64,000 nt of DNA from Dermatophagoides farinae (Eukaryota; Arthropoda; Arachnida; Sarcoptiformes; Pyroglyphidae). The stretch covers positions 8,702,001 through 8,766,000 of the forward strand of contig NC_134677.1 of the NCBI RefSeq assembly GCF_024713945.1, read 5' to 3'. Numbering within the stretch: the first letter of the stretch is position 1; the number at the start of each line of letters is the position of its first letter. Under the pieces are notes generated by a model. It saw nothing but the letters and a program-made list of their open reading frames with translations. It made no database searches and was not told where the DNA came from. Shown piece after piece: positions 3,533-28,025 of this stretch. The position numbers were made by a program, and so were the translations under genes.

Positions 3533-6500
3533 ATGCATGATTTTCTTGAAGATAATAATGTCTGTGGTCAAAATCTATTACGAATTGTTTCGCAGGGCAA
3601 TGCCATCATTGCTGAAATTCATCATCTTTCCGATATGGTACCGAATGTGTTTCGAATGGAAACAATCAGTTCAAATAATCGCCAAAATATGAATAATAAT
3701 AATTTCAGTGATCTAATAATGGATTTCAATTATTTTAAATCATCCGATTCGATTGAACGGCGTATTGAAAATGATGAAAAATTATTGATCAAAGATGAAG
3801 AATTACGTGAAACATATATCGAATTATTAGTGAAATTTTATCTACTTTTCGAAAGTATACATCGATATGCAATCGATTTGGAACGTTATCTAACTGAATT
3901 AGATGATGGAATTTACATACAACAAACGATTGAAACCTGTCCTGATGGATCATGATGGTAAACAATTATTATGTGAAGCTTTATATCTGATGGGCGTCAT
4001 TCTGTTGACAATGGATCATGAAATCAATGGAATTGTTCGTGAACGTATGCTAGTCTCTTATTATCGATATTCAGCATCTCGATCTTGTGATTCTCGCATT
4101 GATGATGTGTGCAATTTGATTCGTTCTACCGGTTATGTACCAAACACTAAACGACCGATAAATTATCCTGAAGATTTTTTTAAACGTACTAAAATTCGTA
4201 CTAGTTTTGCGCGATTGATTATTGGACGTTTACGTACAGATGATGTTTATAATTTATCATCTGTTTATCCTAAACCTGAACATCGTTCAGTTGGCCTATC
4301 CACACAGGCATCAATGCTATTCGTATGTTTGTATTTTGTTCCAGAAATTCTGTCTACTGAATTTGCAATAATGCGTGAAATAGTGGATAAATTTTTCGCC
4401 GATAATTTTGTCATCTCTATCTATATGGGAACCATCGTTAATCTGATTGAACATTGGGATCCATATAAAGCGGCTAAAGCAGCATTAAACAATACCGTTG
4501 ATGGTAAAAATATTCGAACCTGTGCAAAACGATTCCGTAGCGAAATGGAAGATTTAAATGGAAAAATTCCACAATTTCTAAAAGAAGGTATCATAACCGA
4601 AGAAACTATTCTGAATAAAATTAATGAATATATGAATACAAGCCGCAATGCTAATGTTACATTACGTTGGATTATGTTACATACAGTACCGATGCAAGGT
4701 GATTTTATTGACACCCACCAATCAATGAAACGTTGTCGACAGATTCGTGAACAAATTATTACCGAACTTAAATTCAATTCAATAGATCTGTTTCATTTAT
4801 TATTGAATACATCTGAATTCGAATTACGTATACGAGATATTTATAAACAAATTCTACAGAATCGTCACGATAAAGTGATTAAATATCGTGAAGAATCCTA
4901 TAGCCGTATCAAAGAATTGGCCGAAGTGTTTTCCGGACAAAAACCATTGAGTCGTATTGAACCGAATGCAAATCTTCAGAATTGGTTTGAAAATTTTGCC
5001 AAAAAAATCGATGATATTTGTTTGGAGACGGATAGTGACCGAAATCAGGCCAATCAAATGTCAAGAAAATTAATACAGCTAATTAAAGCATTGGAAGAAA
5101 TTCAAGAACTTGGCCAACTTGAAAGTAATCTACAGATCAAACAATGTCTATGCGAAACACATAATTATCTTTGTTTGATGATCAAAACTATTGGTATTCG
5201 TGATGAGATATTGGTTACACAACAGATTATTGCCGATCTTTCATATGCATGGCGTATCATTGATGATTGTTTCACACAATTCATGCAAAAAGGAATTAAA
5301 AAAGATCCAAGTTTAGTTGCTAAACTTCGTGCAGCATTCTTGAAACTGGCCTCGGCTCTAGATTTACCATTATTGAGAATTAATCAGGCATCATCACCGG
5401 ATCTGATAATGGTCTCACAATTTTATTCATCCGAATTAGTTTCCTATGTTCGTAAAGTATTGCATATTATTCCGGAAACAATGTTTACATTGATGGCCAA
5501 CATAATCAATATACAGACTAATACGTTACGAGAACTGCCTACACGTTTAATGAAAGATCAATTGAAAAATTATGCACAATTAGATGAACGTTATGAAATT
5601 GCTCGATTAACGCATTCAATATCGGTTTTTACCGAAGGTGTATTGGCCATGAAAACCACATTGGTCGGTGTCATACAAATTGATCCGAAAAAATTATTGG
5701 AAGAAGGTATACGAAGAGAACTTGTACGACAGGTAGCTGCTGCCTTTCATCATACAATAGTATTTAATTCAAAATCGAAAAATATTGAAATTTTATCAAA
5801 ACTTGAAGAATTGAAAAAAATAATGGATGGTTTTCGTCGTACATTCGAATATATACAGGATTATGTTTGTATAAATGGATTGAAAATGTGGCAAGAAGAA
5901 TTATCACGAATAATCAATTATAATGTTGAACAAGAATGTAATGCTTTCATGCGGCAAAAAGTTCTTGATTATCAATCATTATATCAATCAAAATCGGTAC
6001 CGATACCAAAATATCCACCATTAGATCAACAATCATCGAATTTTATTGGCCGTATTGTAAGAGAATTAACACGAATCACTGATTATCGAACCACCATCTA
6101 TGTTTATGGTATTTCTGCATGGCATGATCAACGAACACGTTCAGAAATTATTGATTCAAAGTTATTTTCATTAATATTGAAAAATTTCGGTGTAGCCGGT
6201 ACCAATGGCTTGGATAGATTGCTTTCATTTCAAATTGTTGCCGAATTGAATACAATATTCACAATGATTGATACGAATTTTACACGTAGTAAATCAACAA
6301 TCGAATGTTTTGCAATAATCAATAATTATTTGAATAATGAAACACCCAATGGTATTATAACTTGTAAGTTTTTTTTTATTTTATTTTTTCATTATAATTT
6401 GATATAATTAATTGTCTCAATCCCTTTTCATTGATAGCTAAAAGTTTTATTGGTCATTATCTACCGATGATGAATCGTTTATCAAAAATTCTATCCAAAT

Positions 6501-7603: not shown

Positions 7604-7624
7604 CAATTTACTTTTTTTTGAACT

Positions 7625-7643
7625 AAGTGCTGCCATCTATTGA
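7625..7643 (-). promoter_or_regulatory. CTCF-core-like motif, left arm of the palindrome
   Basis: The minus strand reads TCAATAGATGGCAGCACTT. Positions YAGRKGGCRS of the known CTCF core are matched. Only the outer C/G positions differ. Factor identity is inference. Confidence 0.35.
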
Positions 7644-7811
7644 TAGCAATAACAACCAAATTTCTGAGGTGCCGAAAGTGGCGGCCCCTAGCGGATTTCT
7701 ACTCAACTAATTTTTTGCATTTTTTGTCATTTTTTCGTAAAATTTTAGTTCAGTGTAAATCCGTTAGGGGTCGCCACTTTCGGCACCTCAGAAATTTGGT
7801 TATTATTGCTA

Positions 7812-7830
7812 TTAATAGATGGCAGCACTT
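7812..7830 (+). promoter_or_regulatory. CTCF-core-like motif, right arm of the palindrome
   Basis: The plus strand reads TTAATAGATGGCAGCACTT, one base different from the left-arm copy and in the opposite orientation. Factor identity is inference. Confidence 0.35.
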
Positions 7831-7916
7831 GGTTCAAAAAAATAATAAATTGACTGAATGGCTGTAGATTGAACAAACATTAATGTTCTGACGGTGAAAT
7901 TCTTTTATCTTTTATA

Positions 7917-7956: not shown

Positions 7957-10900
7957 CTAATTGAAAGAACAGTCAAATGAATTCTGTACATTATTTATGA
8001 TCAATATTCCTTCGATTTTAAGCATTTCTATACAGCCGATAAAATTTTGATAATAAGCCGGTGTAAGGCCATTTGGTAGCGAATGGCATCCACCGATCCA
8101 TAGTTTTCCATTTGTATTCAATTCATTGGCGCCATCCTGAGAAAGAGAGCTGGACATGTATTTTTCATCCACTTCCATAGTGCCTATTCGTTTATCTCTG
8201 TGGAAAAAAATTCCAATAAATCAATGTATTTTTTTAATGATGAAATATCCAAATCAATTTTCATACCTGGTTAGTGTAACCTGATGAAGTTCACCATCAT
8301 TGATCTTGATTGAACTTCGTATACTAAGATAAGTGGATCGTATACCTAGATTAAAACTGAATTCCAGATAACCATCGATCAATATTAATGCAATATAATC
8401 CGAAATTGTATTCGAATCATTGCTCAACCAAAAGATTAATCCATCTTCATTTTTTGTCCGTAATTTCAATTCGATTAAATTTTTATGATAATTAATTCTG
8501 AAAAAAATATGAAATAAAATAAAATTCATTAAGTAAAAATGTAAAAAAATTCTAGTACAATTGCAAATCCACTGTAGTCATATTGTCCAAATAGGATCTT
8601 CGTAATATTGAATTGGAATTCTTTTCGATAGCTATTAAAAATAAAAATGTGAGGTACAGATGTTATAAGAATAATTTCGACAGATCGGTTTACCTTTTTC
8701 ACAAAATTCACCGTGATAATTTGGCTGACAACGGCAAATGAATGCATTTACTGGCAAAAAAAGAATTCATCATTAATCTTTATAATAATAACAAATTATC
8801 GATCACTTACACCATGGTAAACATTGGCCATTATGGCATGGATTTTCTACTCCACAAGGTGGACCCTGATATGGTTGAACATTCACTAGATTTATTGCCT
8901 TATCAATAATGTTTCGTTGTATGATGCCATTGACCACAATACGTTGTATTGCTCCATTAAAATAGTCGCTAACATTTTGTGTGGAAGGCATACCACCCAG
9001 ATATAATGGTTGATTGAGATTTAATTCATTCAGATTTCCGATTGCCATATCTGTCAATAAGGGACTGTGATTCGTTGCAAATAATGAAAAATTAATTCAA
9101 ATGGAAATAATTTGTTGATTATAACATACTCATCATCCATTTGTAACATTCCAATTTTAGATTGACGTATCATGACTATTCGATGCCATTCTCCAAGTTT
9201 CAATCGATTTTGAGACCTGGATTTTTTTTCCCAAAAAATTATCACATCAGTCATAAATAGAAATTACATGAAACTTACTTGATAGAAACACTTCCACTAT
9301 TTTTGGCGCGAGAAAAAAAATCCAAATATCAAATTTGAAAATAAAGATTTCACTTTTTTACCTTTTGTTTTTTGGATTTCCAAGATTAAAATCAAAATAA
9401 ATATGACCCTGATTTAGATGAAGTTGAAGGAAATCACCTTGAGTATGGCCATTGAACATGACTAAACCATTCAATGCTCGTGTCATAAGCCAAACTGTTC
9501 GAGAGGAACAAATGTGGATTTTAATTTCTCAAAATTCTATCATCAATACGAAACCAACCTTCAATTACAAATGTTTGGCTAACACCTTGTAACGTTGGCA
9601 ATTGTACATAGGATTGATTCCAGAAATCCATGACAGCAACTGAATGAGCTACATTTTGAAAAAAAATTTGGTAATAATATTTTCAGGTAAAATTTTTTTC
9701 TTCTGGCTTACATTTATTACAAACATGATGATCATATTGACAGAATGTGCATTTATGTCCTGAACATATTTTCGTTTCACATTGTTCACCAATAAATTCT
9801 TTTGGACATATACATTTAAATGATAAATTACGTTGCCGACATTTGCCACCATTTTTACAAAACGATTGATTACAAGCACTTTTGTCACAATTTTCTAAAT
9901 TGGAAAAAAATCAATAATTTTAATTCAATCAAACACACACACAAACAACGTACCGATATTGATCCAGTTAATAAATTCGGAATTCTGATCCAAATGAACA
10001 CGATTATCATTAATGATCAATGAATGTAGACAACCAGTAAAGTTTTTCTTTACGCTTAGAAGATCGGCAAATTTTTTCTGATTCAATGATGGTAATCCAC
10101 CGATGAAAAGACTATGACCTAAATCTAAAAGTTTGTGAGGACCTTCACTTTTGCCGATTATCTGATCATTATTTATAGATAGTGAAGCTTCGGCAAATTG
10201 ACGATTAATCTGTATGACTAGATTACGGCCAAGTGTAACAGGCTTTGATCCTTTCAGAACAACAGTTCCACTTCCCAGATTGAATCTTAATTCAATAAAT
10301 GAATTTTTGATAATCAATGCAATATAATCGCCTTCTCCCGTATTTGTTTGTCCATTATACAGAATGATACCATCCATAGAAAATGTTATGATTTCCAATT
10401 TAATTTTCACTTTCGAATGTGCTTTAAGCGTATCCATTTCGAGGAAAGCATCACCGTTGAAGTGAATATTTTCCGATTCTTCATATCGATAATCATAATC
10501 AACCATTGTTGGCATGGTTGGACCGGTATTCAAAACAATCTCATTTTCGGACATGTCCAACATTTTAGTCAAACGAACATCATAATCTTGATAACGAGTT
10601 GAACGACGTACTGGACTTGTTGTGGCAGAATCTTGAAATACAATCGTAGTAGGATAACAACTATCCGATGGTAATGACATGATAGATTTGTGCGTTTTAC
10701 ATGAATACAATTTCAGATGGCATTCAGATTCATAGATTTTTCCATCACTACCACATACTGGATCCGTACTGAAAGGACAATCAAAATCGCAAACACAATG
10801 GGAATTTTTGCATATTGCACTGAAATTGCATTGAATATTATCAGTACAAGATATCATATCGGTCGTAATATTGAGGTCGATTGGACATTGATCCAGATGT

Positions 10901-13486
10901 CCAAATGTTGTTTCCGAACAAATATCACATTTCATTCCTTGGAATCCTGGTTAATTGGCATTAATTTTTGTTTGTTGATCAATCATTGAACATTGATAAA
11001 TTACCTGGTTTACACACACAACGGCCAGTCATTTGTTCACAATCGATTCGAGATGATCCAATTTTATTGCATTTACAACCTAAAATTGTTATAATTTAGA
11101 AAAATGCATAGAAAAAACAATAGCATTGTACTTACGAATACATCCGGCATTTCCTTCGGAAATCTTATGCAATCCCCAATAACCAGCTTCACAACGATCA
11201 CAACGAACACCACCAATACCTGTGTTAAGAAACGACAGCGCAGTTGCCGTAAATTATTACATGTCAACATTCTAATATTCGAACTTAATCCAATTTTGTA
11301 TTTTAATGTAAAACTTGTTCTAAAATTGCATATTTAGTTTGGCGATGTTAACCACTGAATAAAAAACTACAATAAAATTTATCCTTTTACAAAACGTTTT
11401 ACTTTGTTTGTTTGGATCGTTTAGTAATTCAGAGATAGATTTCGTCACATACCTGGTCTGCAATAACATTGATGTGATCTGGGGTCACATTTGGCCAGAT
11501 ATGACCCAAGTCGATTACATTGGCAAATACTCGGACATCCAGCCTGATTCGGTCCAAGTGCCAATGTTTTCTGATCAGGACAGCAACCGAAAACCGTATC
11601 GGAACAATCTTCATCGAAATCCAATTCCTGACAACATTTAGCAAAATCCAATCCTTTATGACAGTAGCTATTTTTCGGACAATTCTGGTGCTGACAATCG
11701 TATTCTTTTTTGGTATATTCATTGATCAATGGTGGCTGGCCTTGACAAGGTATGTTTAAAAATCTTTTACAAAAAATCATATCCATTTTTTTAATATCTT
11801 GTTGTCGGTTACAAATTTCTTCGCGAAATATGCATTCATTTTCATAGATACGACCATCACTTCCACAAATTTTCTCCGAATTTGCCGTGAATATTGAGCA
11901 ATTAAAATTGCAATAACAATTATAGCGATCTGATGATTGATGATCAATCATGCATATTCCACCATATTTACATGTATTATATTGGCATCGTGTGCTTAAT
12001 GAATCTGTGATTTTGAGCAATGGAATTCTTCCTTCACAAGAGCCTTTGTATTGTATGTTGATTATTTTAGAACTTGAGCATGCAGAAACCATTAATTGAC
12101 ATTGATTTTCATAGGTAACATTATTTGATCCACAAACAGGATCAATATAACTAGGACATTTTTTTGGACAAATACAGGCTCCATTCTCACATCGGGCACC
12201 GAATTCACAATGAACATTTTGACATGAATTACATGGACCACGTTTGATGACTAAAATGTTTTGTCGTTTTTTACAAGCACTAACTCGTAATTCACATTCA
12301 TTCGTATAGGTTATCAGATCGGAACCACATACTGGATCATATTTCTTTTTGCAATTTGTTGGACAAACACAATGGCCACCTTGATCATCGGTTTCACATT
12401 TGGAATAATAAAGACAATTGATATTTTCACATCCAAAACAAGAACCATCGGAAAATGTAACATTATTGATTTGTTTTTCGCACATGTCCTGTCGGAATTT
12501 GCATCGATTTTTGTATGTTAACAAATTGCTACCACAAACAGGAGCATATTCTTCACTACATTGTGGACAAAGACAACTATAATTGCCTGTCGGTGATAGG
12601 CCACAAATTGAACCATATTTACAGATACCATGATTTCGGTGGCAAAAATTTTCCAAATCACAAGTACCCATATATCGGATGCTAATATTTCGATGATTGA
12701 TGCAAGCCTGACGTTTTAGATCGCATTCAGAATCATATGTTTGGCCATCGGTACCACATACCGGTTTCAATATCTTACTACAACTGGTTGGACATTGACA
12801 TGTAGCTATTCCATAGCGATTAATTTCACAATCTTGATATTGTGAACATTTCAATGATTTGCATGCATTGTTTTCTGAACAAGCTTTCTGATGTAATATT
12901 CGTAAACTTTTCGAACTTCGACATGCTTCCACTCGAAGTGTACATTCATTGATGTATGTTTTGCCATCACTACCGCAAACAGGTTCGAATTCATTTTCAC
13001 AAGCGCAATTACATTTACAGATTGGATTACGATTATCATCCACTTGACATATTTGTGAGGCAGGACATTTTACACCATAACATGGATCTAGGAATGAAAC
13101 AATTATAGAATTCGAGAATTTTATTTTTTTGTTTGTTTATACAACATACCACAAGAACCATTGTATCGTACATGTATTTCTTTTGAAAATTCACATGCAT
13201 GTCGATTCAATTCACAAAGATTAGGATAATCACGGCCATCTGTACCACAAACTAAACGACTTCCTCTTGAATCACCATATGATGGACATTTCTCCATACA
13301 AACACATTCAGCTGTACGGCCATCGAATGATATAATACATTCGGCACCTAGATGACAATTTTTCTTGTAACAAGGATTTGTTGGATCCAAAGTGGATCGA
13401 TAACATGATTGAATGGATGGAAAATGATTGGCTAAAACTATAATAATAATAAAGATTAGATTTGTCACAAAAACATCTGATAACAT
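7957..13486 (-). CDS. AGRN: Agrin-type secreted proteoglycan core protein
   Basis: Fifteen exons: 13486-13150, 13087-11453, 11219-11136, 11079-11005, 10937-9954, 9894-9712, 9648-9559, 9494-9362, 9296-9279, 9216-9130, 9064-8811, 8750-8694, 8631-8559, 8497-8267, 8197-7957. They join in frame to 1493 aa. Order: signal peptide from ATG 13486 ending near SIQSC; Kazal 1 in exon 1; Kazal 2-7 all inside exon 2; the agrin-type GCCPDQKTLALGPN segment; two laminin-EGF modules; Kazal 8; a linker; LamG1; EGF; LamG2; EGF; LamG3 ending SFDCSFN. Kazal units show C-x-PVCGSDG-x-TY-x-N-EC. Agrin organises basement membrane and, in vertebrates, synapses through LamG3 binding. No NtA or SEA domain is visible. Exon 9 is only 18 nt, inside LamG2. 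The ATG at 13486 is preferred because the codons further upstream lack an ATG and precede the hydrophobic signal. Confidence 0.9.
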
Positions 13487-13725
13487 AATATTGATGCAAA
13501 AAAATTTTATGATGATGATAATAATAAGATTAAATTCATTGCTCAATTTTATTCTTGTTTTGTTCTGTCAATAAACTGAATTTACTTTCATATATAGTGA
13601 TGATGATGATGGAACACACACACACACACACGCACAACAATAAGAATCCTGATTCTGTATCATCAAAATAATATATGAAAGCGTCATAGAATAGTAGATG
13701 ATCCAAGCGTTGTATATTGACTACA

Positions 13726-13737
13726 ACAGATGGCGTA
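13726..13737 (+). promoter_or_regulatory. AGATGGCG motif upstream of agrin
   Basis: ACAGATGGCGTA lies about 240 nt upstream of the agrin start codon. It shares AGATGGC with the motifs at 7625, 7812, 38150, 50065 and 60615. Function is inferred only. Confidence 0.25.
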
Positions 13738-15480
13738 TATATCCAGAAAAAAGTCGATTCTATTATGAATCGGAAATGTGTGTGGCCACGATAAGAATTG
13801 GTGAAGGATTGAAAATAAACAAATCATATTGACGACAATCTGGACCAAATAATAATTGGTATAATGGCTATTTATCTAACGATATGTTATTTTCTCGAGA
13901 TTATTGTCATCATCATTATTGTACTGTTTTTTTTTCAGTGGTTTTTTTTAATGCTGAGGCTTAAGTTTTTTTTTATTGGTTCTATTATACAAAGAGTAAT
14001 AATTTCTTTGGTTTTTTTCTTTCTCCATCTTCGAAACAAAAATGAATCAAGTGGATCGTCAAGACATTGAGATTGTAATGATGATGATGATGATGATGCG
14101 TTCATACTATATGCAATTTGAAAGAATTTTTTGTGCACTTGTGTTATTCGCCAATCGAATCGATCTATTGGCCATCATGCCGGCGTCCAGCACCTGTGTA
14201 CAAAGAAAAAGATGTGTGTGTGTGTGTGTGCGTTGTTATCGATGAAAATCAAATTGAATAGAATCGAATTTGATCCAAGTCATTTGTTTTTGAATAACAA
14301 AAACAAAGCGGTCATTTTTTTGCCGATATATGGATGATGATGATAATAAAATGAATGATTTTCAAACATGGAAAAATAAAATTGAAGAAAAATGAAAAGA
14401 AAACCACTAGCAATGTTTATTGTATATAAGCAAGAAAATAATCTATTAATCGATTATCGAAATATATCGGTTGGAATCGAGAATTGGCAGTGAGAAACAA
14501 AAAAGAAAAACGAATCAAATCGATGAATATTCAAATTGGCTCAAAACTTAACCAATCGATAATTGTAATGATGATGATGATGATGATATATTCTACTCAC
14601 TTAATTTGATTTGCTTTTTGCTTTGAACAAAATGTTTTATTTGAACTTTTTTTTTCTCTGTGTGACTATTGGCAAGTATAAAAGGATTATATTGTTTTCA
14701 TTTGATTCATTCATTCATTCATTCATGGACAAAAGTCATGATTGAATTTTTTTTTTTTTTTTTTTTGATTCGAATCATTTAAAGTTTCTTTTCTTCGAAA
14801 TTATATAATTTATTGACTTGGATTAGGCAAATTAAAAAAAAAAAAATAACCGTAACCAACCAGAGCTAACAAAAATCGAAGGATTTATTTATTTTGTTCA
14901 CACTCAAACACAATAGTCAACTGCAGACATTTTGGGCAAATGGATCGGGGATTCTTGTTTCATCGTTCGATTTGATTCCATTTCATTCGATTTGGTTCAT
15001 TTTAGAATATTGAGATTCTATCACCCACAATATGTGTGTGAGTGTGTGTGTGAAAAATAAATTCGATTCTAACGAGAAAAAAAAAATTTTTTCAATCGAA
15101 AAACTCAAAAGTCATCTATTTAAATTACATGTCGTTGTGAATGAGTGATACAATACAATTTTTGTTTCTTTTGCTTGTAAGCAAAAAAAAAAAAAATATT
15201 TCAATGAAATTAAATAATTTCTATATGTGTCTGTATGTGTGTGTGACAAATAATGGAATGAAAAAAATTGTCATTTGAATTATGTATTGTTTACCTTTTT
15301 GATTAAATTATCATCTGCGTATAAATTCAAAATATTTCAATTAGCAGAATAAGAATCACTAGATGAGAAAAATCGAACGTCATTGATATGATGATGATGA
15401 TTTGTAGATTCGAATTCTTGAATTCTTTTACATTCGAATATAAAAACGGATTTGGATTGGATCTATTCTAGTATCATCAG

Positions 15481-15507
15481 CCACACACACACACACACAC
15501 ACACACA
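15481..15507. repeat. (CA)n microsatellite
   Basis: About 13 CA units in the divergent intergenic region. A second block lies at about 15607-15623. Together they create a spurious open frame. Confidence 0.85.
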
Positions 15508-16316
15508 TATGGAAGAAACCGAAGAAAAAGGAAAGAAAGAGGCGGCGTGGCTTGGTGGGCCGGGCACACTTATTTTTTTTTGTGTTCTATTCTTTTTTCT
15601 GGAACATACACACACACACACACATATGATAGAAGAGTTGATCGCAGTGGATGCATCGAATGCGCCGTTACATTTCATTGTTTGCTGGTTTTTTTTTTGG
15701 TCATAATAAATATTTTTTTTGGCGGCATTATTTTTACAATGAACAAATCTTCATTGTGTTTGAATTGTGTCGACAGTGGAATCATAATAACGATGATGAT
15801 GATGATGATATTCATATGAAACAAAAATCTTTCAGATCAATACAATCAAAACAAATGCCAAAATATTCTGTTGAAAGTTGACACAAATACAAAGTTCAGA
15901 TTCCAATCAAATCATTGATCGATTGTTGTTGATCATCAAAAGGTATGTATTATGAATTTTTGATTAATTTTTTTTTCAGAAATTCGAAACGTTTTCTGTG
16001 AAAAGAAATTTGTAAATTTCATGATAAAACGTACGATACCTGTTTGAACTATGAATTGAATTGAATTTTATCTCTTGCTCATGAAAAACATTCATTCGAA
16101 ACAATCATTTTTCATGTGTGGAAATTTTCTATAAAAAAAATTTCATCAATCATTCAAATGTTTTTCCAAAAAAATTTCCCAAAACATGATGATCATGACG
16201 ATAAAAATTTTGAATCTATTAATTTGGTTAGCATCTCATCGTCATTGTCGCCTATAAATATTGGCTTCTGATCAATATCAAACATTATTATCTACAATGA
16301 TCCATTTTGGGCGTTT

Positions 16317-16344
16317 TGTGTATGTGTGTGTGTGTGTGTGTGTG
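16317..16344. repeat. (TG)n microsatellite
   Basis: A TG/GT run with one interruption, upstream of the membrane-anchored agrin-like gene. It pairs with a (CA)n block about 190 bp downstream, so a local hairpin is possible. Confidence 0.8.
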
Positions 16345-16977
16345 TTGTATGTGCACACAGATCTTATATTGACATTTGTAATTAATTCCATTTGAAGCAA
16401 ACAACAACAAGTTTTAGTATTTAAATGTTTGTATAAGTTTTTTTTTCTTTCTTTCGTCGTTTTTCCTGGTTTTCTCGTTTTTTTCTCGTCTTAGTCTTCA
16501 ATTTGGTTGTGCAAATAATAATAGCCCGATACAAACACACACACACACACACATCAAACACACAAAAAAAAACGAAAATACCGTTAGCGTAACTAACCAA
16601 ATGAATGAATAAATGAACGAATCAAACAAGCAAGCTAAATTCAACATAAACAGAAACTCTTGGGACATAGAGAATATTATTACAATTACAATAAAATACG
16701 ACGACGACGATATACACAATGATAAGAGAATATCATCTCAATATGATGAGACCGAAATTTATATATTGGAAAAGAAGATAATTCACCTATTTCATCATCA
16801 TATTATTATCAATATATTGAAATTGCTCCCCTTTTGTGTAAATATAGAAATTTTGTTTTCAATTCTCATTCTCTTGTTATCACTTATCTTTAGTTTGATT
16901 TTTTTTTCTTTGGTTTAGGCATAGAATTCATAATTCATCAAACATATCATCGCCATCTTATTAATTAAGAAAAAAAA

Positions 16978-19900
16978 ATGTTTTTAACAACAATCAATCG
17001 AACAAATGATTCCAGCTATCTTGTACAAAGTTATGGTGTTGCTGGTGGTGGTAATGATCGAATCGAAGATTGTTCACCATATCCACATCAACAACAGCAA
17101 TACAAATCTTCAACAGCCGGCCTTTGTCATCTACCAACAACAACAACGGCAACAACAACTGTAGAATTGGCCAATGTCAATCATCAAAATCAACATAAAT
17201 TGATTACCAGTAAAATGACATATTATGCATTAATGGTTATATTAATTACCGGTATAATGGTTAGTTGAATAATCGAATCAATTCAATATTCAAGTAATAT
17301 TCTAAAATCCAAAAATAAATTTAGATGTTGGTAGTCGTACCACTTGGAAGTACATTTTTATTTATCGATTGTAAGTGAAATAACGATTTTTTCACATTTT
17401 TTTTGTGTATTGTTTTTAAATCACACCAAAACACATTATCTAAATGAAACGGAAATCTTTCATCAAGAACCATATCAATTTTTTTTTCAAAAGTCAAACA
17501 CACACACACACACATCAATTCAATATTGATGATTGAAATGTCTTGATATAAATAGAATAGAAGCTCTCTTTTTTGGATGGATCACCATCATCATGAAAAA
17601 AAAAAATTGTTCATCATATTCAGATTCAAGCCTTCTGGGAAAACTCAAAACAAAACAAAAAAAAAACTGTATTTTGTTTTTTTGCATGTCAATGATGTTT
17701 TTTTTCCATCTCTCAATTCGGATGTTCACCGATCATCATCATCATCATCATCATGATCATCAACACCTGAGGTGTTATTGTCTCGGTTACACCTTTATCA
17801 TTTACATCCTGATTGTTGATGTTGCTGTTGATGATGGAATTGTTTATAAAGATGGTCCCGATTGGTTTTTTTTTTGTTCATAAATGCTGCATTTTCAATC
17901 TTGTCATAAGTATTGAGCTATTTCCAAAATCTGAATATATATCTGTATGTGGCCTATCGACAGATTTGATAATTCCAAAAGAATTGTGTTTCGCATGAAT
18001 TGTTTTGATAGATGAGGGTATCGAACAAACAAGTTTGTTAGCTAAAAAAAGATATAGATTAGAAAAACTATTTATCTATCTATGTAATAACAACAACAAC
18101 AACTACTACTGACTAGTTAGTAGTAACTGATAATCACATTTTGATGCCCGGCACATTATATGTAAAATGATATTCAATGATCAATCATTGTTGAGGTAGT
18201 GTAAGATTTTTTTTTCTCGTGATTTCCATTCAATATTGATATAGCTAACCTTTTTTTACTCTTTTATAAAATCATCGATGATAATGATGATGATGATGGT
18301 ACCGCATTTATCAATTCGATTGAATGAAAATATAATTTTTAATTATGAAACCCTTTTTTTTCTTTTCTTTTTCAATTTGATTTTTTTTGTTTCATTTTCA
18401 ATTTCGGAATATTCTGTGGGTAACATATTTGTATTTTTTTTAATAATATAGATAAACAACAGCTTGCACAACGGAAATCCAATAAAAGCGGTACAAACAC
18501 AAGTTTGACAATACGAATATGGATTTATTGAAATTTTTTTCTTTTTTTTAAGATTTTTGCAAATCTAAATGTCAATATGGTGCTGAATGTATATTGGATG
18601 AATATACAAATCAAGCATACTGTCGTTGTCCATTAAGTTGTCCTGATGATTATCAACCTGTTTGTGGTTAGTATATACAATGATGATGATGATAAATTTT
18701 TTCATAATTGAATTTTTCATCTTTTTCTTTTGACCTTTGGAATAGGTTCAGACGGTACAACATATATTAATCAATGTCATCTAAAATATGAATCATGTAA
18801 TAAACAACAAAACATACGTATTGCATCAAATGGTACTTGTGGTAAGTTTTCATTCATGTTTGTTTTCATTAATCTTAGTAAGAGAAAAAAGAGACAATTC
18901 CTATTTAGTATCGGAACAATCATCGATATCCTTCTTTGTTATATTGATGAAAAAAAAGCATTTTGATGTGGGGATAGAGAGACAGGGAAAAAAGTAGACT
19001 AAAGTGATCGGAAATGAAGAATTCCCATAGAGCAAGAATATAATGGACATTGACACACACACACACACACACTTATACACATAACGAGAAATAATTACAA
19101 ATATAAATAATAACTTTTTTTCTGGCCTTTATGTGCCATTCATTTCAACATGATGCACGATAACTATAAGAGATATGATGAACCAAGATTCAGATCATAA
19201 GCCATTTTAGATCACTTTATTTTGATAATGATAAAAGAGATAGAGAGAGAGAGAGCATATCTTTTTTTCTCATTTTTTTTTTGGAACTCCATTTGAATCG
19301 CCCATCATCGGATAAGCATCTCTCTTATCCGACGATAGATAGGATGATGATTTTATTTTATTTTATATGCAATTATTTCCCCATATATAAGAATGGCGAT
19401 AGTTAAGTGTATGGACATTTAACAACAACAACAGCAGCAATAATAATCGAGCCAATTTCTTTCTATGTACTTTAAATGTGATAAATAGTTCGGATGTTGT
19501 TGAATATAGAATATTCGAAAACGATATCAATCGTCAAAAGTAGATTTTTCCACTTCCTATGGTGATGATGATGAGACAATATAAAAACCATAATGCTTCT
19601 TGAAATGACCAAAATGCATGATTCCACATTCATCATTAATTGTTAGACAAAAAAAAATATTCATTCCATAAATGGACAATTTGATCCAGAGAGAAAAAAC
19701 TTCATTTAAAATGAAAACAGAGATGATGATGATAATGATGATGATGCTTAAAATTAGCTTCTGGCATTGGGTGTGCGTGTGTTAAAAGCTACAAGTTTTT
19801 TTTTCTTTTTGGTTATATGTAACAAACATTGAATGTTGTTCAAAACGTTTTTTTTGTAGTATTTCTGTTAACATTCATCGATCCATTCATTTATTTATTC

Positions 19901-22313
19901 ATTCATTCATCCATCGTGTTTTTTTTTTTTTTTTGTTTACTTAGGCACGCATTCTTTTTCATCCTATTTACATAAAGATACATCCCACACACAGGGCCCG
20001 GCACATTCGGGTATATACAATGTACATACATACACACACTCTATGAATGATAAAAACAAGACAAATATCGGTATTTGAAAGATATTAATGTTTGTGTGTG
20101 TGTGTCTTCTGTATGGGAAAGGAAAAGATGGCACCCACCATTAAATAGATGGATGACTTTGCCGGTGGTTTGACACGACGACGATACTTATAGATATGAC
20201 ATTTTTTTCGGTCTATGCCTGTGTAACACTATTTTAAAATTGCGAGAAAAAAAAAGAAAATCAAATTCACTACTTTTTTTCTCGATTTTAAAATGAAAAT
20301 TAATTATCCAATTGTTGACGCTATATGATAATGTTTTATTGTTTGCTTTGTCATCTTTTTTCCCTTAAAATGAAAGGCAAAACTATCTTGAGAATATTCT
20401 TCTTAAAATTCAAATTCAATTCTTCGAATTTCATCATCATCATGGATTTCAGAATCAAAAAAAAAAAAAAAAATCACACCCACAAAACCTAAGACAAACA
20501 AAACAAAATGGGTAATATTATTACGAGTTCATCATTCTCAAAATGAAAAAAAAATTGAGAAATGTGTGATCTGTGTGTAATGTAAAAATTAATGTATTTA
20601 TAATTTATTATTAGATACGTGTGATGCATTGAATTTTTGAACATTTTTTTTTGCACCAGTTTGTGAGACAATGAGACAAAATAAGACACATCCATATAAT
20701 AATAGAACAACGACAACAACAACAACAACAAATCAAACCGTATACACATAGTTTCAAAAACTGAGGAGTTAGAAAAAAAAAGTTAACTAACTTTGACATG
20801 AATCCATATGGGAGATTTACACATTATTTTACATCCCTTTTGTGTATATTGTGTTTTGTCTTTCTCATCTTTTTTTTTTGCTTTCAGTTCAGTTCAGTTG
20901 GGTTCGTGTTGCTTTTCAATATTCACACAAACACACACACACATCTATCCGTAATGAAAAGAGATGTTTGAGTGTGTATGAATGAACATTGAATTTTTTT
21001 TTTGTTATTTTTAAATTTAAAATTTTTTCGACTATATCAAATCCATTTACCTCATTATTCATCATCATCATCATCATGATGTTTTTTTGCATATCGAACA
21101 TATCGAAAATTTTTTCCACAAAGGGTTATATCGATATTGTTGTTGGCCATTTGACATTTGACAAAATAAACCTTTTTTTCCAAATTGAAATTGAAATTCA
21201 AACAATTTAAACCGTCATCATTTTGTTGTTGAAATGGTACATTGAACTTGTGTAATTTTGTTTCGTACATAATAAAAAAAATATAATGATGATGATGATG
21301 ACGATTGTCAAGGTTGGATGTCATTCCAAACAGTCTATATTAATGTTTGATTGTTCAATCGAATTGAGAATCTATAATAGCAACAACAACAACGAAAAAA
21401 AAACCATCAGTTAAATTGATTTTCAAATGAACATTATCCCATTATCATGAATCCGATCCTTTTATGTCTGTCTCTCTCTCTCTTTCTGTCTGTCTCTCTG
21501 TCTTTGTGTGTGTGTATGAAATTCATGTTATAAAAAGGGATATTTCCAAAATCCAATTGACATTGAGAAAAAAAATGTTTGGTTTTTAATTAATAAAATC
21601 TGTTTCGATTCTGTGTCATTTTGATATCCGGTTTTTTTGTTGTTGTTGTTTTTGTCATTCAAACATTTAAAACATGACATCATTGCGAATCATTGTGAAT
21701 AATTAATGGTCATGAAACAAAAGTGTTAAATTGAACTGTCGAAAGTTCTCAATCCGATTAGACTGTATCGAGAAAAAAAAATTTTTGAAAATTTTTTTCA
21801 TGAATTCATGTATATTCCCCTGTACTATCAACATTTTGCATTTGAGGAAATACAACGCCCAACTGATGATGATGATGATGATGATTGCCCATCATTCATA
21901 ATCAAAATAATGAATGAATGAAAATGGAAAAACAAAAGAAAAAAAAACAAAACAAAAAAATGTTGATGGAATTTGTATAAAGAGAATCACATTAAACAGG
22001 TCATTAATATTGACAAACATTTAACACATAGTGAAAATGAAAATGAAAGAATATCATAGAGATCATAACATCTAGATAGACAACAACAACAGAAAAAAAA
22101 ACCATACAAAATGTATATGTGCATATAATTCTCAATGATGATGATGACGACGAAAGAAAAACTTGCGAAATTTGTTTCAGAATTTTTTTTTTTCATATAT
22201 GAAAATTCTATATGAATGAAGAGAGATTCTCTAGAGAAATCGATGGCATCCTCTATACGCTTTTCGTATCTTTTTCTCTTATCATTCCTTGTCTGACAGT
22301 TGCAGAAACAATA

Positions 22314-22383
<70 letters not shown>

Positions 22384-22551
22384 TTCAACGATGAACACTT
22401 ACGAATAAAAAAAATACACATCCATGGTTGGTGAAACTATATGTATTTTGATCGATAGTGTTAGATTGTGTTAGACACGATGATGATAAACGAAAACAAA
22501 TCACCATTTTTTCGATGATGATAATAATGATATGATGATAACATTAAAAAA

Positions 22552-22584
<33 letters not shown>

Positions 22585-25500
22585 CAAGAGTTGCAATGGT
22601 GATCTTTTCATTGTCAGACACACAGACACATAAGTGAGGAAAAAATGTAAAATTGTAACAAAAAATATAATCACACATTGATTTTGAATCAATTTTTTTT
22701 CCTCTGAATTTGAAATCAAAAAAAAAAAAAATCAAACTTGAAAAAAATGGCCAAAAGTTTTTTCTCTGTAGTTAATTCGAATTTTTTTTCATAAATTGGA
22801 TGTATAGTGAAACAAAAACTAAAACCAAGAAGAAACCAAAAAAAAAAAACAAAGAAAAAAAACCAATTTTTTCTTTCTATTTCTTTTTGTGAACAATTAA
22901 CATAAATCAAGCGAATGAATGAATGAATGAAAAAAAGTGAATCATTGAGATTTTAACATGAAACACACACACACATATTTTGTGACAATTTTTTTTTGTT
23001 TTGTTTTAAACTTTACATTTCAAGTTTTTTTAAATGGAAAAAAATGGAAAATTTTTCTTTTTCTTTTTCTTCATACATATATATACTTTTTATGAATCAT
23101 TTCTCTCTCTTTTTTCTATGATGACATGATGAATCCAAAATCAAATCAAAAATTTTTTTTCTTCTCTCATGGAATGGAAATCGAATTAAGTTAATTTTTT
23201 ATTCACATTTTTCTTGTTGTTGTTGTTGTTGTTGTTGTTCAGATGCAGCCCTTTGTAAGAATGTTGTCTGTCAACGTTATCAACGATGTCAAGTGGACGA
23301 AAATGGCCATACTAAATGTGTTTGTTCATCACAATCATCGGATGTTTGTTCGATGAATAATAATCACCATCAACAACCAGGTATGATGTGATGATTTGAA
23401 ATTCAAAAATAAAATTTCCATTTTCAATTCTTTTCACAATTTTTTTTTTACATTGAATAATGAAAAATCAAGTTTGTGGTTCGAATGGAAAATTATATGA
23501 TTCATTATGTGAATTGGAAAAATATTCCTGTTTCTATAATATCGATGTTGTACCGGTCGATAAGAATTTCTGTACAAAGACAACGATAACAGCGACAACA
23601 AAGACTAACAAACAAAAGACAAAATGGTCCGATTATTCAAATAATAATGATGATGATGATGATGATGCTATTTATTCTACCATTGATCGTAAGGATGGTG
23701 GTATCGTATGTGGTGATCAAGTATGTCATCATTATGCTAAATGCCAATATATCAATAGACAACAACAATCAACAAACACATCATTATCAAGCCTGAGGAC
23801 AACAACAACAACAACAACAACAATAGCTACAATGAAGACGTGTCAATGTCAGAATAATTGTTCAAATGGTATGATTGTTGTGTGTAAACCCCCGAAGAAG
23901 AACTAAAAAAAAACCAAATATTTTTTTTTTGTATTAATTGCTTTACTCTTTGAATTTGGTTATTTTTATTTTTCTCTTCTCTCGTACCCAACAACAACAT
24001 CATCATCAACAACAACAACAACAACAACAATGATTGTTTATTTTCTCAAATTGGAAGAATATGATCCAGTTTGTGGTAGTAATCATCAGAATTATGCAAA
24101 TGAATGTGAAATGAGATCGTATGCTTGCTCTAGGCAAATCGATATTACTGTATTACATCATGGTGTTTGTGGTATGTCAGTTCACACAAGATCAATAATT
24201 GTTATCTAATCGAATAAATATAGGCCAGTGTTATCCTGAATGTCAATATTATTCAAAATGTCAGCTAAATGAAAAAAATATTCCTGAATGTATTTGTCCA
24301 CAAGTTTGTATTCGGTAAGATGATGTGTTTTTTTCATTTTTATTTCCATTGATTCTGTTTCTTACGATTCATTTTACTCATTGTTGAATTTTTTTTTTGT
24401 TCTAAAACAACAAACATGAACATAACTCATTCAGTGTTGATCAGCCTGTTTGTGGAGATAATGGTAAAAACAAAACAAAACAAAAAAAAACAACATCTGA
24501 GCTTTCCATTTTCATTGATATTTTTTTTTATATAGAATAGCTATTTAGATTGATAATAGATAAATAGAATGTAAAACAAGCCCAAAAAAATAGGCATCAC
24601 ATTACAGACACACACACACAACATTTTTTTTTTAAATTGATGATGATTACAATTAAATTTAATAAGGCGTAACATATGAAAATGAATGTGAATTACGAGT
24701 AGCATCATGTCGTATACGGAAACAGATCAAAATTCATTTCAATTCTAGTTGCGGTAAGCGTATTTTTTTCTATATTTATTCATTTTTTTTTACAATTCGA
24801 TTAATGGCTCTTCTTTTTTTTTCGTTTGTTTGTTTGTTTATTTGTACACTTTATCCTGATAAAATATTCTGCTTTTTTTTAATATATATATATAGATTTA
24901 TGCCACAACGTTATTTGTCACTACGGTAATTTGCATCCCATTTTTTCGATTATTCCATTTTTGTGGATCGTTTTTGTTTTCTCGTTTCGCGTTTGGCTCA
25001 TTGTATGATAGTGGTTCCTATTTTTAGTTTATGTAGTGGCCAATTTACCGGATAATTATAATTATTATTTACGAACCATTCAGACCGCGAAAACAAAAAA
25101 AACGATCCACCATTTAGATCCAACATTGGATGTATTCTTTTGTTGTTGTTGTTAATATTCTGGATCTTTTCTTTTTTTTTATTATCATTTTTACAGGAGC
25201 TACTTGTGTGGATGGTGAATGTCTATGCACGGATAATTGCCAAAACAATCTAGTTGAGCCATTATGTGCTAATGGTAAGTCCTAGCCTGCCTGCCTTCCT
25301 GCCTGCATGATTATTAACGCTTTGATAACGTTGGAATTGATTAACACTTTATTTACGGTGGTTGGAGATTTTTTTTTTTGTTCGATTTGTTTATCCATAA
25401 TACAAACGAAAACATTTTCATTGATGATTAAAAAAAAAACACACCAATTATTTATTTTGTTTTTTTTAATAGATGGTAATACATATCGTAATGAATGTGA

Positions 25501-26862
25501 AATGAATCGAATGGCTTGTAATAGCCGTAAAGAATTGATTGCGTATGTATTATATTTTATTCATATAAAAACGATTCCCATTCTAAAGTATTTTATGTTA
25601 GATTATTCTATGGACAATGTGAAGAGACAAATGAAAATTATTTAGAAGAATTTTCATCATTAATTCAAGATCGAATTCAAATTGAATCTGAACATTTATC
25701 ATCATCATTGATATTGGACAATACTAATATCGATTGTAACATGAATGAAATGGTATTATTTTAGTCATGTTTTGTAATATATATTGAATTATGATGACTA
25801 ATATTAAACTTATTCAACAACAACAACAAAAAAAAATTAGAATCGAACTTGTCGGTTACATGATGATATGGATAGCAACTACATACACATTTGTGGTATG
25901 GATTTTTGCTACTGCTGACCATAATTGAGAACTAATCCCCGATTGTATTCTAATACCCACAAATAGATAATCGAATATTTCAATCCAAATGCGATATGCT
26001 ACAATATGGCTGTCATGGATCGAAGCAACAAATCAATTGTACCAAACGTAAGCCAATCGTTTGATTTGTCGTTGTTGTTGTTGTTGTTGTAGTTGAATCA
26101 TTGAATCGATATTATTGTTATTGCAGATTATTGTCATTGCCATAAGAATGGTATAGAAAGATCTATTACTCAATTATGTAATGAAAAAAATGGTCAATGT
26201 TCCTGTAGAAAAGGATTTCAAGGCATAAAATGCGATTCATGCGCCACGGACTATTGGAATGCTGCTGGAACAACAATCAATAGTAAAGGCAATTATTCTA
26301 AAAACAAATTCTTTGAATCCATTGCTTTTTTATTGATTTTTATTTTTATTTATTTCATTCAATTCAACAGACATGGATTGTAAACGTAAGAAATTGAAAA
26401 TTTTTATTTGAAAAAATGATGATTATAAAATAATTAAAAATATATACATAGCATGTAATTGTAATCCGATAGGATCGATCAATCAACAATGTAATGATTT
26501 CAAAGGAAAATGTGTTCATGATGATTCAATAAAAAACAACATCAATAATAATGGCACTTTTTCATGTTTGCGTAATCGATGCCGATTTGGAGCAATTTGC
26601 CAATCGAATGGTTCCTGTACATGTAATTTTAATTGTAAATCTATTCACCATAATAATAATAATAATCATCGCCATCAACAACAACAACAACAATCAATCT
26701 GGTTAGTTGATCAATTTGGTGATTATCGTTGTTATATAATGAGAATTTATTATTCATAGTGCTTCGGATGGTTCAATTCATAAATCAATGTGCCATTTTC
26801 GTCAGTATATGTGTAATTTACAAAAACGTTTACAAATTATCAAAAATTGTCGTGTTCATTGA
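16978..26862 (+). CDS. Membrane-anchored agrin-like protein with Kazal and laminin-EGF modules but no LamG
   Basis: Twenty-one exons: 16978-17259, 17325-17370, 18452-18490, 18553-18666, 18746-18841, 23243-23380, 23473-23868, 24058-24171, 24224-24314, 24435-24463, 24667-24753, 24896-24925, 25197-25274, 25473-25542, 25602-25752, 25841-25895, 25967-26047, 26127-26282, 26371-26385, 26452-26701, 26760-26862. They join in frame to 806 aa. There is no cleavable signal: a Thr/Gln-rich cytoplasmic head of about 80 residues precedes a hydrophobic span (YALMVILITGIMMLVVVPLG), suggesting a type II protein like vertebrate TM-agrin. The ectodomain has six Kazal units, most split by a phase-1 intron just after the PVC cysteine, then a laminin-EGF module (CRKGFQGIKCDSC), a shortened second one, and a final Kazal ending at TGA 26862. 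No LamG or SEA domain follows. Whether it is an agrin paralogue or a separate Kazal protein is not settled. Confidence 0.82.
22317..22378. repeat. (GA)n microsatellite, about 31 units
   Basis: The longest pure dinucleotide array in the window, uninterrupted for about 62 bp. It lies inside the large intron of the agrin-like gene. A GAGA-type factor could bind it, but that is speculation. Confidence 0.95.
22554..22581. repeat. (GT)n microsatellite
   Basis: About 14 GT units in the same large intron, about 180 bp after the (GA)n array. Confidence 0.9.
24959..25114. repeat. Short inverted repeat within an intron of the agrin-like gene
   Basis: GTGGATCGTTTTTGTTTTC at about 24963-24981 is matched in inverse by GAAAACAAAAAAAACGATCC near 25089-25108. 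This gives arms of about 20-25 bp around a loop of about 105 bp, inside the intron between exons 24896-24925 and 25197-25274. It may be a small MITE-like element or a pre-mRNA hairpin that brings two splice sites together. Confidence 0.5.
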
Positions 26863-26934
26863 TTAATTTTTTTTTAAATTTTTATGATAACACATTTGTC
26901 TATCGTACAATTTTTTTTCCACTATTATCATTCA

Positions 26935-28025
26935 CTATTGTATGTTGCCTTTACGAAATTTGTCTAGTTCATAGAATGATGCTTTAACAATACGGCCACC
27001 AAAATAGCGGCCATTCAGATCGACCAATGCTTTGATAGCTGAATCAACGTGTGCAAATTCAATAAAAATTTTTACAGCATCTTCATCACTTTCATAATCT
27101 TGTTTTTCATAAATCTGACATTTAATCACTTCACCATATTTTGAACATTCTTCTTTTGTTTCTGGTTCTAATTCGGCATCCACTTCACCTGGACCAACCA
27201 TATTACGTAATAGTAACACTTTAGATGGATTTTTCAACATTTCAGTGATAGGCAAATCTTCATTTTTCTTTTCATTTTCGTAGATAATTTTACCTTGAGT
27301 TTTACTGGTCTTCTCTACCTGTAATGCTTTATTGATGCCTTGTTCTTCTTTACCAAGACCTTGGCCTTCTTTGTAGCCCATTTTGGCCATTATTTTGGCA
27401 GCCACTGAACTAACTTCAAATCCTCTGGGTATTTTATTCGAATTTGAACTGGCGACTTTTTCAACATTTTCCAATAAAGATGCTGGCGGTGCAAACGTTG
27501 CCGATGTTTTGCTTTTTGAATCCGATGATGATCGATGGTTGTTCGTGTTTTCATATTCATCATCATCATCATCGTCATAATCTAATCCAAGACTTCGAGT
27601 GGCTATCACCTGTGATTTTGATGCTTTCTTTTCTTGTTGTTCGTTGCGTTCTTTGATTAATTTCTCATAATCATTTGGCCATCGTGGATCGTATTCCTCA
27701 TTAATGTCCCAATCACCACCAAGTATTGAAGCACCTTGCTTAGTCATATTTAACTGTGTTACACTGATGACCGGAGTGGGCAGAACCTCGTCCATTTTGG
27801 ATGATATGTTTCTGTTGTAACCTCCATACAATGATGATGGACTTGGCTTGTAATTGTTCTTCGGATATAAAACGTGAGGTAAACTTGACACATTGTTAAT
27901 CATGAAATTCTAATTACCTTTGCAGTCGTTCTTTTTACTTGAAGATGATCTTGTAATAATTTGATGCTCGATGTTTTGCTGTTCGATTCATCATTTCGTG
28001 TTATAATATCATCGTATAATGACAT
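26935..28025 (-). CDS. RBM17: Splicing factor 45 (RBM17)
   Basis: SPF45 is a spliceosome-associated factor that recognises U2AF-ligand motifs in SF3B1 and others through its C-terminal UHM and helps choose alternative 3' splice sites. Exon 1 is 28025-27918 (start MSLYDD, as in the family). The second exon ends at 26935 and begins at 27858 or 27846; both acceptors fit the frame and both have weak pyrimidine tracts. This gives 343 or 339 aa. Visible features are the early EYDPRWPNDYEK motif, a G-patch (KIMAKMGYKEGQGLGKEEQG), and a UHM/RRM beginning VLLLRNMVGPGEVD and ending GRYFGGRIVKASFYELDKF. The acidic Asp run between them is mite-specific. Its stop lies 72 bp from the stop of the convergent agrin-like gene. 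Confidence 0.93.

Follow-up and report, generated by a model that had tools for sequence, protein, structure and literature searches.

Agrin is an animal protein that gives order to the extracellular material. Its architecture in the house dust mite Dermatophagoides farinae appears to be spread over three genes, two of which lie back to back, pointing away from each other, within the 64,000-nucleotide stretch analysed here (the window; positions 8702001-8766000 of contig C1, NC_134677.1, in a genome of 62.4 Mb and 22 contigs). One member of this divergent pair, on the minus strand, would encode a LamG-bearing agrin that starts at the equivalent of the second follistatin-type (FS) unit, FS2. 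The other, on the plus strand, would encode a membrane-anchored copy with FS and laminin-EGF units and no LamG domain. The third gene, on contig C5, carries the NtA domain and one FS unit. Together with the history and mechanism proposed below, this reading has a probability of roughly 0.6.

The divergent gene pair

An earlier, sequence-only reading had placed a divergent pair of agrin-type genes between 7957 and 26862, which are the final bases of the minus and plus stop codons, respectively. The pair is confirmed: the frames are open throughout 1496 codons (minus) and 793 codons (plus), and both products match agrin through Pfam domains and in the PDB. The exons of both genes were joined manually at GT-AG sites (14 introns in the minus gene, 19 in the plus gene), so splice consensus holds by construction; open frames do not. 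Transcript ends and splicing are predictions for both genes.

The predicted minus product follows the agrin order: several FS units, two laminin-EGF units, one more FS unit, and three carboxyl-terminal LamG domains. In full, it runs from a hydrophobic amino terminus through FS units m1 to m7, a Cys-rich cassette (located where vertebrate agrin has one), two laminin-EGF units, m8, and a linker, and ends with LamG1, a weak EGF-like unit, LamG2, a second weak EGF-like unit, and LamG3. Pfam identifies Kazal_2 (E 9e-73, eight stretches), Laminin_G_2 (1.3e-67, three), and EGF_laminin (7.1e-16, two). The EGF-like units between the LamG domains fall below the Pfam cut-offs (EGF 0.0025, hEGF 0.002), and their Cys pattern was recognized by eye. 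Among solved structures, agrin 8s9p is the best match (E 2.3e-177), followed by neurexin-1-alpha (2.8e-45). Residues 1-19 (Kyte-Doolittle mean 2.49) are taken as a signal peptide from their hydrophobicity; the earlier description of this gene, a signal peptide with three LamG domains, is supported to the extent of a secretory-looking terminus and the three domains. An AATAAA motif lies 35 bases beyond the stop codon.

Pfam detects neither NtA nor SEA in the minus protein. No NtA domain lies near the gene, and none of the three SEA matches in the genome is on C1. Because the NtA and SEA alignment legends in the available portion of PMC2874008 name no arthropod (the SEA legend names vertebrates and Ciona), the minus gene looks like an ordinary arthropod agrin. 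The long second exon found no relatives in collections of genome contigs, viral contigs, and plasmids (six pattern matches, none confirmed); these collections are microbial and silent on arthropods.

The plus gene keeps the agrin order of FS and laminin-EGF units, although half of laminin-EGF 2 is missing and FS unit p6 is degenerate. The tally is six clear FS units plus the degenerate one, and one and a half laminin-EGF units (Pfam: Kazal_2, 2.9e-47, six stretches; EGF_laminin, 4.3e-7, one). Agrin 8s9p is again the best match among solved structures (E 1.6e-72). A hydrophobic stretch (Kyte-Doolittle mean 2.63 across 19 residues) follows a coding-like tail; the product may be a type II-like membrane protein. 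The protein also carries homopolymer inserts (Asn, Gln, and Thr runs).

No LamG domain was found in the plus protein by Pfam up to E 0.1. When the window was scanned with a profile of the three minus LamG domains, every one of the seven strong matches (E at or below 2e-7) fell on the minus strand, and nothing on the plus strand did better than E 0.36. The predicted anchor, the Kazal and laminin-EGF modules, and the stop before any LamG thus stand as the sequence-only reading described them. The genome-wide LamG scan lists 37 matches, 15 on C1 and none on C1 beyond this locus, and overlooks LamG domains split among exons, such as minus LamG2. Because it lacks LamG, the plus gene is filed, by its predicted domains, as an agrin-derived paralogue and not as agrin proper. 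One point counts against its assigned end: the 3' end of the transcript is uncertain because the first AATAAA/ATTAAA after the stop codon, at 27061, falls inside the coding stretch of the next gene (G-patch plus RRM), which occupies the minus strand from 26938.

Other candidates were rejected. Six-frame profiles of the window gave no further noteworthy match that might represent hidden Kazal or LamG exons, either in the plus introns or downstream. Nor is there a second plus-gene copy: the 23 genome matches to a 275-residue piece comprise seven in the plus gene, six in the minus gene, one in the C5 gene, and nine at four further loci (C1, C3, and C4), these last mostly to the laminin-EGF part. 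NCBIfam gave no match for p1-p2 (a query of 148 of the 793 residues).

A third gene and a proposed FS1/FS2 cut

The sole NtA match in the genome lies at C5:1649611-1649883. The gene there (exons 3842-4445 and 4583-5124 of locus L012) encodes 381 residues: a hydrophobic amino terminus, NtA, one FS unit (n1), a Ser/Thr-rich tail, and a stop. Agrin is its best PDB match, with alignment to agrin 60-254 (NtA plus FS1). (A frame resembling glucose-6-phosphate dehydrogenase, recognized by eye and not searched, lies downstream on the opposite strand.)

Unit comparisons connect this gene to the divergent pair. Minus unit m1 against vertebrate FS2 gives the largest specific score in the 15 by 9 table: 48.7 after adjustment (row and column effects removed), the next in its row being 8.1. 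Since the C5 protein comprises NtA and one FS unit, and m1 is specific for vertebrate FS2, the C5 and minus genes look complementary, as though the agrin architecture had been cut between FS1 and FS2. Two results weigh against this reading. The n1 unit scores closest to vertebrate FS8, not FS1; and pairing minus units 1-6 with vertebrate units 2-7 reveals no significant register overall (18715 raw and 4007 adjusted of 60480 assignments). The proposed split therefore rests on m1, NtA, and position, and n1 is the FS1 equivalent by position only.

Unit order shared by the pair

BLASTP of the plus against the minus protein yields one match, covering residues 4-678 of the 682 plus residues supplied (E 1e-67, 27% identity), with the order FS...laminin-EGF-laminin-EGF-FS. 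The order test for the plus units (without p6) against the minus units gives 4 of 720 permutations, and 124 of 5040 with p6 included; the corresponding values against vertebrate agrin are 306 of 720 for the plus units and 538 of 5000 sampled for the minus units. Among the 56 order-keeping assignments of p1-p5, the register p1-p5 = m2-m6 is best by raw score (666; next, 664) and by adjusted score (63.2; next, 58.6). Of all 6720 assignments, 5 raw and 50 adjusted reach its score, itself included. Assignments that include p7 = m8 give 24 raw and 95 adjusted of 20160; with p7 = m7, the values are 5 and 4 of 20160. (The assignment tests were run after the order tests had hinted at a register, so these fractions need multiplying by the few possible registers.) The second BLASTP match pairs p3-p5 with m4-m6. 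Moreover, the introns ahead of p1 and m2 agree in position and in phase (phase 1), and another phase-1 intron separates the laminin-EGF units in each gene. Unit order is thus conserved between the genes, and p1-p5 = m2-m6 is likely to be the exact register.

Several results pull in the other direction. In the top BLASTP match, p1-p2 align with m2-m3 but p3-p5 then align with m5-m7, and the highest-scoring assignment of all is not in order (676 versus 666). Restricted to p1-p5 against m1-m7, and so leaving out p7, the order test falls short of significance (25 of 120). Unit p7 scores 118 with m7 versus 106 with m8, and plus laminin-EGF 1 scores 109 with its vertebrate counterpart versus 104 with minus laminin-EGF 1. 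A tree of single Kazal units, suggested earlier as a check, was run on 24 rows (p6 and the laminin-EGF units excluded beforehand), and none of its 21 inner branches is starred. It pairs p2 with m3 (81/91), p4 with m5 (80/73), and p7 with m7, all with modest support, and is otherwise unresolved.

The sequence-only reading also proposed an inverted duplication. Copying of the block is supported by the unit order common to both genes, whereas no inverted copy is visible at the DNA level among the longest repeats. Of the 25 longest of 109 inverted-repeat pairs, those within and between the two genes are mostly simple repeats; only one links homologous Kazal exons (48 nucleotides at 73%), and a recent inverted duplication was rejected. 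Intron content also differs: p1-p6 (window 18553-26047) are interrupted by 13 introns and m2-m7 by none, six FS units occupying a single exon of 1635 nucleotides (11453-13087). Finally, laminin-EGF 1 identity is 35% between plus and minus, compared with 59% between minus and vertebrate. From the intron imbalance, the near absence of DNA-level copies, and these identities, we conclude that the block would have been copied long ago, or copied and then fast-changed.

The low identity, the introns, and the missing DNA-level copy would also be expected if the plus gene were an ancient arthropod paralogue, belonging to a separate family of membrane FS/laminin-EGF proteins older than mites; the divergent pair would then be old and not species-specific. 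That plus laminin-EGF 1 is no nearer to minus than to vertebrate favours such a history. However, the two genes are still adjacent, with a common unit order; the tree pairs p2-m3 and p4-m5; and fast change of the plus gene accounts for the same identity, intron, and DNA-level facts. The ancient paralogue retains a sizeable minority of the probability.

Start and coding character of the plus gene

The codon-usage model drew on seven long frames from other parts of the window, three of which lack a Pfam match. Scores in bits per codon are 0.018 for the plus gene and 0.007 for the minus gene, versus -0.52 and -1.28 for the other plus frames; 1448 overlapping non-coding windows of 80 codons average -0.27 (standard deviation 0.13). 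The 80-residue tail ahead of the hydrophobic stretch scores 0.21 by itself, a value reached by none of the 1448 windows, although its Gln/Thr runs may inflate the score.

These values bear on where translation starts. Met80 immediately precedes the hydrophobic stretch, which counts against an anchored product: initiation there would make the stretch a cleaved signal peptide and the protein a secreted one. Yet the plus frame has its first ATG upstream of Met80, with no ATG in the 150 bases before it, and the tail has coding-type codon usage. Secretion of the plus product therefore seems unlikely. The erosion of p6 and laminin-EGF 2 and the Asn, Gln, and Thr runs could instead mark a decaying copy on its way to becoming a pseudogene, but a frame open across 20 exons, with codon usage level with that of the minus gene, makes such decay distinctly improbable. 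An assembly error, with misoriented halves or an NtA-FS1 gene that belongs upstream of the minus gene, has no finding in its favour and is very improbable, given that both loci lie deep within contigs of several Mb (C1, 9.17 Mb; C5, 5.42 Mb) and each gene has its own start and stop and is flanked on both sides by other genes in the stretches read.

Proposed history and mechanism

In the favoured three-gene history, an ancestral agrin would have been split between FS1 and FS2. The FS3-to-FS9 block would also have been copied in inverted position and joined to new first exons at the phase-1 intron, with LamG either lost or never received. The minus product would be secreted into the matrix and would engage receptors on cells through its LamG domains. 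The plus product, a type II membrane protein on this view, would display its FS units outward to capture BMP/TGF-beta-type ligands (or proteases) and would lack the receptor activity of LamG. The NtA-FS1 product would be secreted too and would bind laminin in trans.

LamG receptor binding, NtA laminin binding, and FS growth-factor binding by the mite proteins are inferred from sequence. Ligand binding by the plus FS units would be carried over from rat agrin, which tells against this part of the mechanism. Four TGF-beta-family matches in the genome are possible ligands. A search for dystroglycan (DAG1) gave no match but is uninformative, as the control gave none either.

Division of function, as the sequence-only reading had it, presumes an ancestor with both amino termini. 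The anchor in the mite could have arisen separately, because 5' rapid amplification of cDNA ends (RACE) in Caenorhabditis elegans, as described in the available part of PMC1939731, gave only the signal-peptide form. More tentatively, and at somewhat less than even odds, dust-mite agrin would be three genes divided along functional lines: an unattached NtA-FS1 protein that binds laminin; a secreted matrix protein running from FS2 to LamG; and an anchored, LamG-less ligand trap with FS and laminin-EGF units at the cell surface. The membrane form would then be independent of vertebrate transmembrane agrin, a natural construct of anchor plus FS without LamG.

Comparison with known systems

Vertebrate agrin (8s9p; PMC2874008, as available) shares with the mite genes FS units, two laminin-EGF units, a further FS unit, three LamG domains, and, as predicted for the mite, two kinds of amino terminus. 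The two vertebrate forms, NtA-secreted and type II transmembrane, arise from one gene through different first exons; the amino terminus is the sole difference given there, and both forms have LamG. In the mite, the forms come from separate genes, the predicted membrane type lacks LamG, and there is no SEA domain. NtA marks the vertebrate secreted form, whereas in the mite it resides not in the minus gene but in the third gene, on another contig.

The Apis and Tribolium agrins (PMC2874008) likewise have FS, laminin-EGF, and LamG units; unlike in the mite, the portion available mentions no additional membrane-type gene and no free-standing NtA-FS1 gene. C. elegans AGR-1, like the predicted minus product, combines a signal sequence with FS units and with EGF-like and LamG domains and lacks SEA, but it has seven FS units, two LamG domains, one gene, and a single amino-terminal form by 5' RACE (PMC1939731, in part). 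Its NtA domain is disputed: absent according to the portion of PMC1939731 seen, but listed in an alignment in that of PMC2874008. No study of agrin in mites was found by title or abstract opening among the matches listed in the open-licence literature.

Tomoregulins (TMEFF) are type I membrane follistatin-domain proteins with two FS units and one EGF unit. They resemble the plus protein in presenting membrane-bound FS units that possibly meet TGF-beta-type ligands, but the plus protein is type II-like and has the agrin unit order. Within the mite, a multi-Kazal gene on the minus strand (locus L011, about 4222-5357; C1:7.094 Mb) was set aside as a plus-gene relative: its units lack the FS pattern by eye, and the frames inspected showed no laminin-EGF.

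Features and surroundings

CA/TG, CT, and trinucleotide simple repeats are abundant between the two genes and in the plus introns (window 13487-26900). Beyond the 3' end of the minus gene, window 7605-7850 holds a 104-nucleotide inverted repeat (90% complementary, 22-nucleotide spacer). Similar copies at several sites on C7, C8, C9, and C10 suggest a dispersed palindromic repeat resembling a miniature inverted-repeat transposable element. In this genome, a frame for a group 7 allergen is closer to Der f 7 (9hae, 3uv1; two differences over 194 aligned residues) than to Der p 7, as expected of D. farinae or a very close sibling. Pfam found no match for five of the ten neighbouring frames searched.

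Table 1. Window positions of the divergent agrin-family genes, their predicted units, and neighbouring genes
Feature	Position	Strand	Basis
Plus gene, agrin-derived, 20 coding exons, 793 residues, without LamG	16978..26862	+	gene model, Pfam, PDB, codon usage
N-terminal tail, 80 residues, predicted cytoplasmic	16978..17217	+	gene model, codon usage
Hydrophobic anchor (predicted), residues about 81-108, interrupted by intron 1	17218..17366	+	hydropathy
FS unit p1	18558-18840	+	Pfam, Kazal profile
FS unit p2	23254-23573	+	Pfam, Kazal profile
FS unit p3	23709-24170	+	Pfam, Kazal profile
FS unit p4	24229-24752	+	Pfam, Kazal profile
FS unit p5	24901-25620	+	Pfam, Kazal profile
Degenerate FS unit p6, paired with m7 by position only	25735..26040	+	weak profile match, 13.1 bits, E 0.02
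Laminin-EGF 1 and first half of laminin-EGF 2	26132..26513	+	Pfam, PDB match
Last FS unit p7, then stop at 26862	26565..26850	+	gene model, Kazal profile
Stretch between the two start codons, 3491 bases	13487..16977		
Minus gene, agrin-type, 15 coding exons, 1496 residues	7957..13486	-	gene model, Pfam, best PDB match 8s9p
Exon 1: hydrophobic N-terminus (likely signal peptide) and FS unit m1, vertebrate FS2 equivalent	13150..13486	-	
Exon 2: intronless m2-m7 (13082-11769), Cys-rich cassette (11606-11535), start of laminin-EGF 1	11453..13087	-	
Laminin-EGF 1 and 2	10885..11525	-	Pfam
FS unit m8, at the position of vertebrate FS9	10657..10848	-	gene model
LamG1	9893..10473	-	Pfam, LamG profile
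LamG2, spread across exons 6-11	8860..9712	-	gene model, LamG profile
LamG3	7960..8620	-	LamG profile
Strumpellin	3903-6404	+	Pfam
G-patch/RRM protein	26938-27909	-	Pfam
CortBP2-domain protein	38658-40529	-	Pfam
GNL3L-type GTPase	41274-42980	+	Pfam
Suppressor of fused	47046-47963	-	Pfam

Significance

Agrin activities are hard to separate, since a single, very large protein carries them all. Should NtA, LamG, and the membrane-anchored FS units indeed have separate genes in the mite, any one of them could be taken away while the others stay in place. This would reveal whether the FS half is active in isolation, BMP signalling being one example, and whether invertebrate agrin must carry its laminin anchor within the same polypeptide. 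The arrangement, if real, would also provide an example of a membrane protein of the agrin type that does without LamG, a modest point, though one open to testing, about how basement-membrane proteins evolve.

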